DNA from: Amanita rubescens
Lineage: Eukaryota; Basidiomycota; Agaricomycetes; Agaricales; Amanitaceae
DNA length: 64,000 nt
Direction: 5' to 3'
Assembly: GCA_015039365.1 (NCBI GenBank)
Contig: WION01000021.1
Location: forward strand, 1-64,000
Shown here: positions 37,878-43,298 of the stretch, piece after piece
Layout: every line of letters begins with the position of its first letter
Position numbering within the stretch: the first letter of the stretch is position 1
Translations under genes and position numbers: made by a program
Notes under the pieces: model-generated
What the model saw: only the letters and a program-made list of their open reading frames with translations
Database searches by the model: none
What the model was told of the DNA's origin: nothing

Positions 37878-40800
37878 ATGTCAAAGGTTTACATGGCAGA
37901 CTCAGACTTGGATGTAGATGTTCAAGAAGAAATTGCTGTGCGCAGGCAGCAATTCAGATGCCCCTGTTTTCGTATTCTTGTCATAGGAAGGGCTAATGCT
38001 GGCAAGACTACAATCCTTGAGAAGGTTTGTGGGGTAGCAAAAGGAACAAAGCCAATCATTGTGTACAATGAGAAGAGTAAGTTTGACACCAAAACCCAAT
38101 CTACTTAAATTCCTTAGAAATTGTCAGATAACAAACTAATGCCTGATGATACACATGCAACCCCATCAATTGATGTAAGTTAAATCATTCAGTAAAGATG
38201 TACTTAGCATGACACATGTAACAAGAGAGGCATTCATGATATTGAACATCAGATTACATATGAAGGGAGCAACTTTATCTTCCATGACTCTCAAGATTTT
38301 GAGTCTGGTGCAAGGGAGGAGTTAGATGTTGTTTGGGATTTCATCAAAAAGAGGTCTGCTGCAGCTGAGCTCAAAGATCAGTTACATGCAATTTGGTATT
38401 CATGTCTTTATTTTGATAAATGACTAACCTACATAGATCCAAACAGGTACTGTATACCTATGGACAGTGCTCGCCCATTGTTGCCTTCAGAACTGGACTT
38501 CTTTGATAAAGGGACAGGAAGGGGTAAATGAATCAAATTAATATTTTGGCTGTGCTGGAAATTAACCATTATTTCCACAGTTCCTTTGGTTGTTGTATTC
38601 ACCAAATTTGATGGTCAAATCATCCAAGAATCTGGAAAATTGAATGACATTGAGGATGATGGAGCTAAGTGGGACATGGCCAGGAAGAATGCTGAGATCA
38701 CTTTTCAGACTACTTATCTTCCTAAAGTCATGAATGTTCAATATCCACCAAAAGCCTATGTGAGACTGGAAGGTAAGAATGAAGCTCTTCCTGCTTTAAC
38801 AGATACATATCATATTTTATTAGATATGGATATGCCAGAAAATGACTGTCCTGAATTGAGTGAGAAGACAGCCTTTGCAATTGATGATGCCAGTCTACAA
38901 GAACTGTTTGTCTCAACACAAATGAACAATCTTGACCTTTGTGTTAAATCTGGACTTCAGTGAGTATCAAACTAACTTGTTTTGCTTTTAATGAAATGTT
39001 GAGTGTCCAGACATGTCTTGAAACGAGAGGAAACCTCATTGGAGGATGCCTTTCTCATTGTACTCAGCAAATTTCCACATTACTGGGTACTTACAAAACA
39101 AGGCTCATATGGGTATAAGAAAACTAAGTAAAAATCAGGTTGCCAGAGAAGTAAGTATGTTTTACAAAGATGTGAAATGCCAGTGATTGTGCAAACTCAA
39201 GGTCAATGTAAGTATCACAATTTACCTTCTTTCATGATTGCCCCAACCAACAAATAAGGATGATGTATGTTGACATAAATTCACCCATCCAAATATTTAA
39301 TCATTTCTGAAACAACATTATATTAAGAAACACAATGACATTGATGTGAGTATCACACAAATGTTCTTGCCATAAATCTGATGCCTTTGACAACAGTGGG
39401 CAAGTGATTTCAAATGATAAAGATCTTTGATCAGTATTGATCTCATGATAAATAGTTTGTGAGTGATGCTACTCATATATCAAGGAAATATTAAATGGGC
39501 AATAGCAAGTAAGTGATAATGGACATTTTTGTGATAATTTCATTATATGCAATCTGATAAACAGGAAGTAATTTAAACTTGTCTCTGAGGCAATTAAATT
39601 GTATCTCATCCCATAATCAGGCAGTGAGTGATAATTCTATTTGGTCAGGAAGTCACATGTCATGCATCTCCTGTGATACAGATTGTAAGTGATGGAATAT
39701 TCCTCAATTGCAAGAAGTGTCACCATGTTTTTGACTAATAGAAAGTAAGTGATATTGTGGTTTTGCATCTCAAATCATCAGATGGCTTACAGGCTGTGAG
39801 CAACATCACTGAGCTAAGGAGTTTTATTTGGTCTCAACCTGTGACCAACAGGCTGTAAGTTGCACTGTATCATTTTTGTGGAGTAGCATCTCTCAAGATA
39901 CACAGGGAGTGAGTGAAATTGCATAGAAATCTGCAATAACTGTCTCAGTATTATCCTGGGAGATTGTGAGTGCAAGTGCAAGTCCCTCAATTACAGTCCA
40001 TCAATGATGAACAGGAAGTAAGTGATATTGCACCTCTGTTTTCAGAATAATATCCCAATATATACAAAACTACAAAGAGTGAGCAATTTCATTATGTATT
40101 GGACTATATCAAATTTCATCATCTTAACAGGAAGTTTGTGTTGCTGCCTTTTAGCTAATCAACCTGATTAATGCATTTCTGGTCAAATAGTGAGTGCATG
40201 GTGAAACACTTGGTGCAGCTCAACATGCAGCTTACATCTCATACAGGTAGTGAGCCCACTGCATTGTTTTCATTGTGTTGTTGCATTTTATCCCATGACC
40301 AACAGTATGTGAGTGATACTGCATTTCTTTCTTTACCATACAGTCTCATTGCATTTCATCCCATAACCAACAGTATGTGAGTGGCACTGTATTTCTTTCT
40401 TTACCATGCAGTCTCATTGCATTTCATCCCATGACCAACAGGAAGTGAGTGACACTGCATTTTCTTTTTTACCATGCAGTCTCATTGCATTTCATCCTAC
40501 TATGGCCAACAGGGAGTGAGCACACAGCATATGGTCATGTGACAGTCTCATTACATTTCCTGTGACCAACAGAGAGTGAGTGACCATGAATTGTTTCTTC
40601 ATCTCATTGCATTTTATCCCACAACAAACAGGAAGCAAGTCACATTGCATGTTTTTTCTTAACCATGCAGTCTCATTGCATTTCATCCCATGGACAACAG
40701 GGAGTGAGCTCTTTCTTTGCCATGTAGTCTTATTGGACTTCCTTTGACCAACAGAGAGTGAGTGATACTGCATTGTTTTCTTTGTGTCATTGCATTTCAT

Positions 40801-42787
40801 CCCATGACAAACAGGAAGCAAGTGACACTGCCTTTTTTTCTTAACCATGCAGTCTCATTGCATTTCATCCCATGGCCAACAGGGAGTGAGCACAATGCAT
40901 TTCTTCCTTTATCATGCAGTCTCATTGCATTTCATCTCATGACCAACAGATTGTGAGTGACACTGCATTTTTTCTATACCATGCAGTTTCATTGCATTTC
41001 ATTCCACTGTGGTCAACAGGGAGTGAGTGACACTGAATTTTTTCTCTGTCATGCAGCCTCATTGTATTTCATCCCATGATCAACAGGCAGTGAGCACACT
41101 GCATTGTTTTCTTTACCATGCAGTCTCATTGGTTTTATCTGATGACCAACAGATAGTGAGTGACTGCATTTTTTCCTCTTACAATGGAGTCTCACTTTGC
41201 ATTTCATCCTGTGGCCAACAGGGAGTGAGTGATACTGCACTTTTCTTTATCATCATTCAAGAACTTGTTGCATTTTATGACCAATAGGCAGTGAGTGACA
41301 TTGCATTTTGTCTCATTCCATTTCATCCCATGATCAAAGTATGTGAGTGACAGACACTGCATTTCTTTCTTCACCATGCAATTCTCATTGCATTTAATCC
41401 CATGACCAACAGGAAGTGAGTGACACTGCAATTTTTTACCATGCAGTCTCATTGCATTTCATCCCATGGCCAATAGGGAGTGAGCATGTGACTGCATCTC
41501 TTTCTTTACTATGCAGTCTCATCACAATTCATCCCATAACTAACAGATTGTGAGTCACATTGCATTTTTTTCTTTACTATGCATTTCATCCCATGGCCAA
41601 CAGGGAGTGAGTGCCACTGCATTTTCTTCTGCCACATTCTCAGTCAGAATCTCATTGCATTTCATCCCATGACCAACAGCTGGTGAGTGATACTTTCTTT
41701 TTCCCTTTATCATGCTGTCTCATTTCATTTTATTTTATGGCTAACAGAAAGTGAGCAATGTTATTCCTTTCTCCACTTGAACATCTAAGCAAGCCCAATT
41801 CTCAATCAACAGGAAGTAAGACTTATGTCCAAAACCAAACTATCATAATTAAAACTTCCCTTAAACAACAGAGAGTGACCCTTTACATTCTCTTTGTGAA
41901 CACTTGACAAGTTATATCTGACATCATGTGTCACAGGATGTAAGTGATTTAGCAATTTATTACAATAGATGGTTGCAACAAATGTTATCTTATATGTATA
42001 ACAAATAGAAAGTGAGCAGAATCTTATATTCAATTAACCAATCATATTTATAACTAACAGAGAGTGAGTGTCACCATTGCATTGGGTGGCCTTATCTTAA
42101 CACATCCCACAACCAATAGCAAGTGAGTTTACCACTGCTGTGGCACTGCCTTTATGGTCAGGAACTTTATCTCATCACATTTCATGAGCAACAGCAAGTG
42201 AGTAACACAATCATTTTTAAACTCACATGTCTCATGCACCTCTTATGGTCAATAGTTTGTAAGTTTGGACAATGCTTCTTCCAGTTCTATCTCATTATTA
42301 TAATTAGGTTGTGTGTGACACCAGGCCTTGCTGCCACCTATATCACTTGACAATAGCATTTGTTTTTTATTATTATCAACAACAGAAAGTGAGGGCAGTA
42401 CTCTTTTCCTTTTGCATGGTATTTCACTCATGATTGTAGAGAGTAAGTGAAATTGAAATTCCATCCAGAATGTTGCCTTTGATATATTTTGATAGAAAGT
42501 AAATGAAAATCTATTCCTCTGCTCCATACATTGACAATTATCCTTGTATTTATAGATTGTAATATTATATACCTTCAATTGTTCCAAGTACCTTTCTCTA
42601 ATGGTTCCTTCTTGCTAGGTGAGAAATACCACAAAATATCAACAACCTTGCTAACCTAGCATTAGATTGTATGTGCACCACCATACTGCACTTGAGGTTT
42701 CATTCTTCCTCTGATCAGCCTGAACTCCTTTCATTGTTTGGAGTCTCAGCAACTGTAGGACACATTCTTGCAAATCTGTATGCATAG
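37878..42787 (+). CDS. AIG1/OBG-like P-loop GTPase with a C-terminal array of single-codon microexons
   Basis: The N-terminal G domain resembles a GTPase family common in Agaricomycetes. Exon 1 starts MSKVYMADSDLDVD (an upstream ATG at 37837 would need a 32-nt intron). FRILVIGRANAGKTTILEK is G1; FIFHDSQDFESG is the G3 position but reads DSQD, so the invariant Gly of DxxG is Asp. WYCIPMDSARPL and VPLVVVFTKFD (G4, TKFD) follow. Ordinary exons run to 39086 (SLEDAFLIVLSKFPHYW). Exons then shrink: 12 nt (39139-39150), 6 nt (39202-39207), 6 nt (39259-39264), 18 nt (39328-39345). About fifty exons of exactly 3 nt follow (separate entry). The last exon, 42719-42787, encodes PELLSLFGVSATVGH and ILANLYA with stop TAG. 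GTP turnover may be abnormal and the role is unknown. The G-domain part is well supported; the microexon part is read from splice signals only. Confidence 0.78.
39397..42668 (+). repeat. Tandem array of 51 three-nucleotide microexons, each flanked by a full set of splice signals
   Basis: Each unit is acceptor AG, three bases, donor (mostly GTGAGT, GTAAGT or GTGAGC), then a 47-75 nt intron. The central introns carry a T-rich tract, a CTCAT branch-point-like word and an AACAG acceptor. Triplets with first base: TGG 39397, TTT 39456, CAA 39506, GAA 39565, GCA 39621, ATT 39682, AAA 39742, GCT 39793, GCT 39852, GGA 39906, ATT 39963, GAA 40015; GAA 40131; GTA 40247, TAT 40306, TAT 40374, GAA 40442, GGA 40513, AGA 40573, GAA 40632, GGA 40701, AGA 40755, GAA 40815, GGA 40883, ATT 40950, GGA 41020, GCA 41087, ATA 41153, GGA 41222, GCA 41288, TAT 41340, GAA 41413, GGA 41477, ATT 41547, GGA 41604, CTG 41680, AAA 41748, GAA 41813, AGA 41872, GAT 41937, AAA 42009, AGA 42061, CAA 42120, CAA 42195, TTT 42256, GTT 42308, AAA 42386, AGA 42440, AAA 42496, ATT 42556; ATT 42666. 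No stop codon occurs. As codons: Glu 8, Gly 8, Ile 7, Ala 5, Lys 5, Arg 5, Tyr 3, Gln 3, Phe 2, Val 2, Trp, Leu and Asp 1 each. Units near 40077 and 40190 lack the three-base spacing, and at 42618/42619 AG meets GT directly. The splice pattern is seen; its use is inferred. Confidence 0.85.
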
Positions 42788-42810
42788 CTAATGTGCTGCT
42801 CTTCATTTAG

Positions 42811-42992
42811 TTTGTAGGTCCACCACCAAGTAGAATTTGGTAGCTTCATGTTTCCATCGTCAGCCTCAACTTCACTCCTTGTTTGGAAAATCACAAAAGT
42901 TCTCAGCAAATGTAAGACCCCTCCCTCCTGATGTGATATTGCAATTGTCAATTGATGCTCTTGTGATCAGGCTACTTCTTGCCAAATCTTAG
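42811..42992 (+). other. Candidate alternative last microexon and terminal exon
   Basis: Just after the first stop codon the sequence repeats the preceding layout in diverged form. Acceptor ATTTAG is followed by TTT (42811-42813), donor gtaggt and a 50-nt intron ending gtcag. A 129-nt exon (42864-42992) then opens PQLHSLFG, parallel to PELLSLFG of the first terminal exon. It stays open for 42 codons to a TAG and ends with a hydrophobic stretch LSIDALVIRLLLAKS. Skipping the first terminal exon would need a 142-nt intron (42669-42810). It could give a second C-terminus or be a relic of duplication. Confidence 0.6.
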
Positions 42993-43046
42993 CTGGTAGT
43001 GCATACCTTTTCATTTAAATCTCAGAGGGATTGACATTTTTAAGCA

Positions 43047-43298
43047 ATGAATGTCATTGCAAAACTCTCATTTTGGAGAGTAAAGCCAGCTAAGGAATCA
43101 CCAGCTAAGACCTCAATCATGTCTAAGCTGCTATTTCAGAAGGTCCAGCCATTTGATCAATTAATCATGGATGGCTTGGATCAGTTCAAAAGGGAAGGCT
43201 ATGTAGATAAACTGAAAGCTTGCATTACCTCAGTGTCTTTGCCTGCTAATCATCAAGATCTATGTGGATTCATTTATGATCTGATAGCACAAATCTGA
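43047..43298 (+). CDS. Hypothetical small protein or exon in the CG-poor island
   Basis: An 83-codon frame starts MNVIAKLSFWRVKPAKE, continues MSKLLFQKVQPFDQLIMD and GLDQFKREGYVDKLKAC, and ends FIYDLIAQI. Its amino-acid texture is protein-like, not the low-complexity output of the nearby array. A splice acceptor (aaatctcag) lies just upstream at about 43024, so it may be a further 3' exon of the GTPase locus rather than a separate gene. No family is recognised. Confidence 0.4.
   Translation: MNVIAKLSFWRVKPAKESPAKTSIMSKLLFQKVQPFDQLIMDGLDQFKREGYVDKLKACITSVSLPANHQDLCGFIYDLIAQI

Follow-up and report, generated by a model that had tools for sequence, protein, structure and literature searches.

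Arrays of single-codon exons very probably encode a continuous linker in a large GTPase family of Amanita rubescens

We analyzed a 64,000-nucleotide (nt) stretch of DNA from the ectomycorrhizal fungus Amanita rubescens (contig WION01000021.1, positions 1 to 64,000, hereafter the window) and focused on one gene, at 37878-43298 on the + strand, which codes for a fungal P-loop guanosine triphosphatase (GTPase) and carries an array of exons that are each a single codon long. Comparison of DNA with protein sequences makes it very probable that this gene belongs to a large Amanita family of P-loop GTPases in which about 50 residues of a linker each have their own 3-nt exon, bounded by phase-0 introns, and are spliced into one continuous linker. 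On the same comparison, we conclude that the array of one-codon exons is real and coding.

The complete conceptual protein of the window gene has 467 amino acids and comes from 64 exons, and a splice-chain model (generic donor and acceptor weights set by hand, weaker donors admitted, stops excluded by construction) places about 63 introns within 1.4 kb of coding sequence. The first seven exons hold the Walker A motif GRANAGKTT and end with FPHYW in phase 0. Protein searching yielded 1476 relatives of this GTPase and, for the first 313 residues, a fully identical match (100%, covering 88% of the query) to the Amanita rubescens protein P0001 (F5887DRAFT_1282804). Both the Walker A motif and the body of the G domain are present, with G-x-ANAGKTT and further columns invariant in 16 aligned relatives, some relatives carry PF01926, and a Pfam scan of the 313-residue part gave Arf as its sole match, at a sub-threshold 16 bits (cut-off 22.3). 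The scan found neither a NACHT domain nor ankyrin repeats in this part; the host protein is a GTPase.

Downstream of FPHYW, the frame runs through four short exons of 12, 6, 6, and 18 nt (peptide VARE.VN.DD.KHNDID) into the array, and the chain model upholds this splicing anatomy as it was given in a preliminary description of the same DNA. A strict pattern (AG-NNN-GTRNG or GCAAG) scanned over 39000-42800 found 47 sites, 46 of which lie within 39397-42668, while the remaining one, at 39150, closes the 12-nt exon. Within that interval, the chain model placed 50 three-nt exons, and it added another beyond it, at 42811-42813. The preliminary description had counted 51 units at distances of 47-75 nt; the chain model retains 50 of them, and the 51st (ATT at 39963), which restores that count if included, has a poor acceptor (GGGAG) and lies within a 106-nt intron. 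The distance range likewise fits 45 of the 49 array introns, the remaining four being 106, 113, 113, and 107 nt long. Each of two decayed units sits inside a 113-nt intron: at 40076, a single base stands between AG and GTGAGC, and at 40190, AG and GTGAGT overlap, or a TGA triplet lies ahead of a poor donor. None of the accepted triplets is a stop, as had been claimed (the model bars stops), and when stops were permitted, the model took a single one in the window, where the 12-nt exon ends. Under stricter thresholds, the chain model halts at the 12-nt exon, since weak acceptors precede the 6-, 6-, and 18-nt exons (each acceptor ends in AAG) and some donors are weak as well.

The array core is a tandem repeat of about 68 nt. 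In the outer units, the introns have diverged and the AG-NNN-GT spacing and exact 3-nt slots are kept, which bears out the preliminary description on this point. When the chain model was left free to start anywhere, it built a chain of 48 exons on the array versus at most one exon in 13 control tiles of 4 kb (0-36 and 44-60 kb, both strands), and it gave 2 exons when run along the array in reverse orientation and no more than 2 in any of 100 dinucleotide shuffles.

Spacing and stop content were then compared across 20 fetched array loci (L009-L028) plus the window, with units de-duplicated by context, and across the genome (75.7 Mb in 786 contigs), where exact patterns were counted against a reversed-pattern control. 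The locus set contained 327 units of AA[CT]AG-NNN-GTRAGT with 35 kinds of codon and 0 stops, the next commonest spacings being 2, 30, and 4 nt with 7, 7, and 6 units, respectively; a zero-length AG|GT exon, as at ratchet sites, was found once against the 327 at 3 nt. Genome-wide, AACAG-NNN-GTGAGT occurred 3803 times (reversed control 31), and AACAG-NNNN-GTGAGT 48 times (control 41), with at least 5 of these 48 in L026 and L028. Only 2 of the genome-wide triplets were TRA (TAA or TGA; control 2) versus 735 that were CRA (CAA or CGA; control 0). Because TRA ahead of GTGAGT creates a competing donor, GTRAGT, which TAG does not, we added a test of TAG, which was found 0 times (control 1) versus 40 for VAG (AAG, CAG, or GAG; control 0). 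With stops allowed in 3-nt exons only, the chain model took 12 stops among 565 units of 15 sequences, all with scores of 2.0 or below, and 10 of the 12 belong to L026 and L028, whose slots of 1, 2, or 4 nt yield a false TGA. Of 744 one-codon exons in 15 sequences, 677 have A or T as their third base, perhaps keeping G off the donor, and many residues are written mainly with one codon.

The order of the codons also matches proteins of relatives. With one array residue per dot, the window spells VARE.VN.DD.KHNDID.W.F.Q.E.A.I.K.A.A.G.E.E.V.Y.Y.E.G...L.K.E.R.D.K.R.Q.Q.F.V.K.R.K.I.I.PELLSLFG, and the JGI entry P0004 continues after FPHYW with VIREEDDKHNEIDWFESADDAAGKEREYYDDGIHSGGYGYYGGKKISEKERDHRRDFVEREILPGLLSLF. 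The conceptual window protein and P0004 are identical at 291 of 478 positions (61%, full length), with 5% gaps. When only the 3-nt codons were aligned, for six loci against P0004 and five loci against P0077 and P0017, none of 2000 codon shuffles reached the score in any of the 16 tests, the weakest of which (L012) scored 64 versus a shuffle maximum of 56. These loci share ancestry, so the 16 tests are not independent proofs, and with P0077 and P0017 the match is confined to the first 15-30 residues. The linker of P0004 follows the codon order of the window, which is what inclusion of the codons would give.

A non-coding satellite in a long intron, with AG-NNN-GT arising by chance, would account for the repetitive core of the array. 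It is extremely improbable, and we ruled it out, given the stop depletion, the codon order that matches proteins, and the exact spacing in diverged outer units. Stop depletion, 3-nt spacing, and codon order agree with the selection on splicing that the preliminary description had suggested, and they point to selection for coding as well.

Four JGI entries (P0004, P0009, P0010, and P0042) have an intronless open frame that fills 75-97% of contigs of 1.5-1.7 kb (478 amino acids on 1486 bp in P0004), and each carries a long continuous Amanita-like linker that runs to a conserved C-terminal block. FPHxW is present in 11 of the 16 JGI entries fetched, accompanied by the C-terminal block in 5 of those 11 (these four and P0093); P0110 has the block with FPNFW, and a pattern match in P0091 was false. 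P0009 and P0010 agree at 279 of 292 positions before the linker and at 85 of 90 after it versus 36 of 60 inside it, with 21 gap positions there, and since both come from another data set, the variability of the linker as such is independent of repeat assembly. A protein search with the tail of P0004 only (residues 318-478) returned P0004 alone among 423 candidates, so the linker is not traceable in this way, and a search of solved structures with P0004 as the query gave nothing at E 0.1.

These linkers bear on the inference, made in the preliminary description, that any subset of the codons can be spliced in. One-codon exons would then be skipped or included in many combinations, and one gene could make very many linker peptides. 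Every unit is skippable without loss of frame, with phase 0 throughout; the frame of the window gene stays open only if its two decayed units are skipped; and the truffle precedent is described, in the sources cited below, as alternative splicing of codon-sized microexons. Furthermore, retention would bring in no stop or frameshift for just 79 of 1099 modelled introns, so skipping would be the tolerated splicing error. Against this, the linker of P0004 agrees in order with the window codons from end to end, and the diversity that is visible lies in DNA, between sister genes and units, and not between isoforms. We consider such combinatorial splicing unlikely, and the long continuous linkers of the four JGI entries lend the any-subset inference no support.

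The continuous-linker reading also changes the 3' end of the gene, which the preliminary description had closed with a 69-nt last exon and a stop. That exon proved to be a conserved exon, PELLSLFG..SAT, read through its own donor: the conserved part ends at 42754 and is followed by the weak donor GTAGGA, and the frame runs on through ATSCQILA into AMNVIAKLSFW...DLIAQI and a stop (Table 1). The donors at 42755 (GTAGGA) and 42996 (GTAGTG) are both weak. Translated searches (tblastn) with the C-termini of P0004 and P0009 matched the C-terminal block in the window and in 16 of the 20 loci (absent from L010, L011, L012, and L021). The array would thus code for a linker inside the protein, with the conserved block beyond it, in place of the C-terminal peptides that had been proposed. 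The exon PELLSLFG.. is tandemly duplicated as PQLHSLFG.., with a one-codon exon between the two, as is also the case in L013, L014, and L024; the duplicate could be an alternative to the first copy, in series with it, or unused, and mutually exclusive exons are possible.

Table 1. Features of the GTPase gene in the window
Feature	Position	Strand	Basis or remark
GTPase exons 1-7	37878-38076, 38128-38174, 38226-38395, 38447-38523, 38581-38772, 38824-38959, 39011-39086	+	homology
Four short exons of 12, 6, 6, and 18 nt	39139-39150, 39202-39207, 39259-39264, 39328-39345	+	splice-chain model; aligned to P0004 VIREEDDKHNEID
Array of 50 single-codon exons plus introns, predicted peptide WFQEAIKAAGEEVYYEGREGREGIGAIGAYEGIGLKERDKRQQFVKRKII	39397..42668	+	pattern, splice-chain model, protein alignment
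Satellite-like core of the array, periods 67-70 nt and multiples	40281..41630	+	codons chiefly G/E/R/I/A/Y
Two decayed units within 113-nt introns	40070..40200	+	sequence; long introns in model
Exon PELLSLFGVSAT after the array	42719..42754	+	same exon in L009, L013, L014, L029
One-codon exon TTT (42811-42813) and duplicate exon PQLHSLFGKSQKFSAN (42864-42911)	42811..42911	+	splice-chain model
Exon ATSCQILA plus 1 nt, weak donor GTAGTG	42971..42995	+	tblastn, chain model
Last coding exon, conserved C-terminal block to DLIAQI and TGA	43045..43298	+	tblastn with P0004 and P0009 C-termini

The window gene is one of many. DNA of the array core matches at least 129 places in the genome, and one GTPase exon has at least 150 matches (150 of 224 candidates scored; haplotype copies counted). 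A GTPase lies upstream on the same strand in 20 of the 20 array loci fetched, although it is partial in some (residues 204-300 only in L010 and L011, 165-300 only in L012, and cut by the fetched end in L019). Among four further sites without a listed GTPase beside them, L030, L031, and L033 do have one, and L032 reaches the contig end (446 bp). Conversely, six loci with a listed GTPase, L029, L034-L037, and L040, gave 47, 11, 12, 34, 29, and 12 one-codon exons in the model. Looking for processed retrocopies, we found none: L034-L037 have long open frames, and the model places introns and one-codon exons in all four, with few such exons in L034 and L035. Across 20 sequences, made up of the window and 19 loci with near-copies among them, the model counted 1051 one-codon exons, of which 593 show the perfect motif, and scaling this proportion to the 3803 genomic matches suggests, as a rough extrapolation, a total of about 6700 in the assembly. 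The largest modelled chain has 87 three-nt exons (L020), compared to 50 in the window. Of 29 Amanita proteins fetched from NCBI, none has the C-terminal block, and 23 stop 0-52 residues past FPHxW, at the array or shortly ahead of it; the design of the gene is thereby hidden from annotation.

Small contigs carry identical or near-identical copies of the window array (L009 on C410, L010 on C482, and L011 on C274). An array at C3:126545-135640 has no GTPase within 2.6 kb, and a GTPase followed by W.F.E.E.G.K.K.K.T.D.R lies at C3:115.1-116.4 kb, in L040 (C3:115000-120500), where the array stops after these codons; the GTPase-free array L039 (C3:123900-127200) begins about 10 kb further on. We infer that an insertion of about 10 kb, repeat-like at its start, separated this array from its GTPase (the interval was fetched except for 120.5-123.9 kb). 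The 4 kb fetched at L038 (C1:764400-768400) contain two chained one-codon units and lack a GTPase; this site at C1:764.5 kb may be a relic or a different kind of gene.

Younger sister arrays differ mainly in their codons. In the subfamily with FPHFW (L015-L023 and L026-L028; core introns mostly 62 nt), the introns hardly differ, whether within one array or from array to array, and it is the codon slot that varies, a pattern from which the outer units of the window depart. Across 11 sister arrays (62-nt introns only), nucleotide diversity (pi) was 0.004-0.041 in introns and 0.32-0.65 in codons, a ratio of 12-78. We aligned ten pairs of arrays, with ratios and tests for five. Changes in codon versus intron nucleotides numbered 9/156 and 9/3340 for L016/L022, 4/162 and 4/3338 for L022/L023, and, in four pairs whose aligned units may not be strictly orthologous, 56/144 and 29/2899 (L018/L027), 58/141 and 34/3126 (L016/L018), 43/135 and 28/2911 (L016/L027), and 41/120 and 21/2495 (L015/L017). 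Eight pairs, which overlap, together gave 124 codon changes, 6 of them synonymous and 71 altering 2-3 nt together. L019 and L020 differ by the insertion or deletion of one whole unit (65 nt), and within an internal duplication of L020, 11 of 57 codon nucleotides had changed compared to 4 of 1181 intron nucleotides. That codons are diverse while introns are uniform fits exchange and conversion between units by way of their introns, combined with selection for codons that are diverse, in frame, and free of stops; neutral concerted evolution would homogenize both. Together, these comparisons lead us to favor, with some reserve, a reading in which intron-plus-codon units act as the recombination units of a hypervariable linker.

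The three bases of the slot could instead be a mutational hotspot, for example at end-joined repeat junctions, with selection keeping the in-frame results that are not stops. We observed slots of 0, 1, 2, and 4 nt among similar introns in L028 (C749:1-9900) and L026 (C13:577500-587400), and these irregular slots may mark relaxed arrays, slot-targeted indels, or a polishing artefact. In L026, 5 of 48 slots deviate from 3 nt versus one indel event in 2976 intron nucleotides, and in L028, 17 of 48 slots do so versus 19 indel events and 44 substitutions in 2976 intron nucleotides, about 18 times as many per nucleotide in the slots. The changes of 2-3 nt together, and a codon-to-intron ratio of 20-41 in four young pairs, would suit such a hotspot too. 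On the other hand, only 1 of 345 slots is irregular in nine other arrays, and 4-nt slots stand at the genome background, though selection would have the same effect. The introns of L028 are the most indel-rich of 11, such that L028 may simply be decaying, polishing artefacts look similar, and conversion between units accounts equally well for swaps of whole codons. Altogether, we regard slot-targeted mutation as quite unlikely.

We also considered that a burst of introner-like insertions cut a formerly intronless linker at each codon. The introns are near-identical within and between young arrays, and introner-like elements are known in fungi (PMC4457414), but insertion precisely every 3 nt in a single phase would be unexpected, and the arrays examined all lie within one gene family. 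Because duplication of the target would leave identical neighboring codons as a trace, we examined these in 10 arrays and found them at most slightly above chance, with 26-1791 of 2000 permutations reaching the observed value. An introner-like origin is, in our view, very unlikely.

Several observations weigh against the continuous linker and its evolution by recombining units. The exon structure of the window gene is predicted from comparison of DNA with protein sequences, and the intronless JGI entries are only probably complementary DNA of relatives, a status deduced from their open frames. Six other JGI entries (P0016, P0017, P0023, P0024, P0077, and P0098) have different ends 19-90 residues past FPHxW, which may reflect retained introns, mis-assembly, or other isoforms. 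The loci are not independent, with the window and L009 identical (zero differences) and L019-L021 and L022/L023 near-copies, and the chain models of L012-L014, L026, and L028 include longer exons that are possibly wrong. No codon excess was found in L013/L014, the oldest pair tested and one near the window gene (35/153 codon versus 682/3338 intron changes), and near-copies had no codon change (L019/L020, 0/258 with introns 1/5253; L020/L021, 0/186 with introns 7/3792). The irregular slots of L026 and L028 belong here as well. Finally, the codon differences of near-identical arrays could come partly from polishing the repeat with mis-mapped reads, and such an artefact could mimic the observed picture because introns are correctable from many copies and slots are not.

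We propose that the linker between the G domain and the conserved C-terminal block is interrupted by a phase-0 intron at every codon and that the spliceosome would join these codons into one linker, their order and frame being given by sequence and their full inclusion suggested by relatives. The introns would probably be removed sequentially, each step passing the next donor to the growing exon; we propose stepwise removal because 3 nt leave hardly any room on an exon for donor and acceptor factors at the same time. The unit of evolution would be an intron plus a codon, with near-identical introns serving as homology arms, such that unequal exchange and conversion could add, remove, or swap entire codons with the frame untouched. 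Selection would discard stops and wrong lengths and keep codons diverse, as the sister arrays suggest, a pattern not seen in the older array of the window. The G domain and the C-terminal block are conserved and the linker is variable. The product would be a GTPase whose linker is hypervariable codon by codon; we speculate that this protein is most likely receptor-like, with a part in recognition or signalling, and recognition is our first guess because fungal NLR repeats under diversifying selection offer an analogy. It is a doubtful but conceivable extension that the family is a system of somatic- or population-level diversification, with identical introns as recombination arms and codon slots as a hotspot for writing, swapping, or inserting whole codons; splicing and selection for frame and absence of stops would filter the outcome, giving an open-ended receptor repertoire built of single amino acids that arose independently of the truffle nank genes discussed below.

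For splicing, the window gene would mark an extreme found in nature: its exons are too short to be recognized in the ordinary way, and its genome holds at least dozens of array-bearing GTPase genes. It also suggests that introns can serve evolution as recombination arms that keep the frame and alter a protein one residue at a time, through which the linker may change by single amino acids without loss of frame.

Schistosome MEG and aphid bicycle genes likewise place many symmetric microexons in one gene and encode secreted animal proteins; the microexons of both are longer than the modelled Amanita ones of 3 nt, those of MEG genes being 6-36 nt long and coming with a signal peptide, and we know of no intron repeats in MEG or bicycle genes. 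At recursive splice sites of Drosophila, or zero-length exons, acceptor and donor stand side by side, splicing is stepwise, and nothing is left in the mRNA; adjoining acceptors and donors would similarly force stepwise splicing in Amanita, where each step would leave one codon. Introner-like elements are dispersed over many genes, unlike the Amanita introns, which are tandem and in one family as far as examined. The two are alike as near-identical spliceosomal introns, which in Amanita are found in the arrays of the FPHFW subfamily. Functional microexons down to one codon are known from Drosophila homothorax, with a single 3-bp micro-exon (PMC7392893), and from a microexon switch in Trichoderma Xlr2, in an account that calls functional microexons previously undescribed in filamentous fungi (PMC11121469); these are one microexon per gene and a regulated switch, not an array. 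The WD, ANK, and TPR repeats of fungal NLRs combine concerted evolution with diversifying selection, and they resemble the Amanita arrays in shuffling within and between genes, in a conserved body with hypervariable positions, and in polymorphic repeat number (PMC4986451). In those NLRs, a protein motif is repeated, whereas in Amanita an intron forms the body of the repeat and a single codon its variable part.

The closest relative in kind, and a closer one than the MEG and bicycle genes that the preliminary description had placed nearest, is the nank (NACHT-ankyrin) family of the truffle Tuber melanosporum, which is said to diversify by alternative splicing of codon-sized (3-bp) microexons (PMC4986451, PMC3689799, PMC10197012, citing Iotti et al. 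2012), numbering "tens" according to one of these sources. Both are expanded fungal families built on a nucleotide-binding domain with tens of 3-bp exons, and the truffle, too, is ectomycorrhizal (PMC3689799). However, nank genes encode ascomycete NLRs with ankyrin repeats and their diversity is ascribed to alternative splicing, whereas the Amanita genes encode basidiomycete P-loop GTPases whose diversity lies between genes and units; the passages cited on nank genes make no mention of similar introns. We found no report of microexons in Amanita, or of microexons in basidiomycete GTPase genes, in the open-access literature. As far as that literature was searched, codon-sized microexons in numbers are a known kind, and the GTPase host, the basidiomycete lineage, the homogenized introns, and the scale are new. 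The Amanita genes would thus be a second instance, unrelated to the truffle one, of a fungal nucleotide-binding family with arrays of codon-sized microexons, which hints at convergent diversification of receptors.

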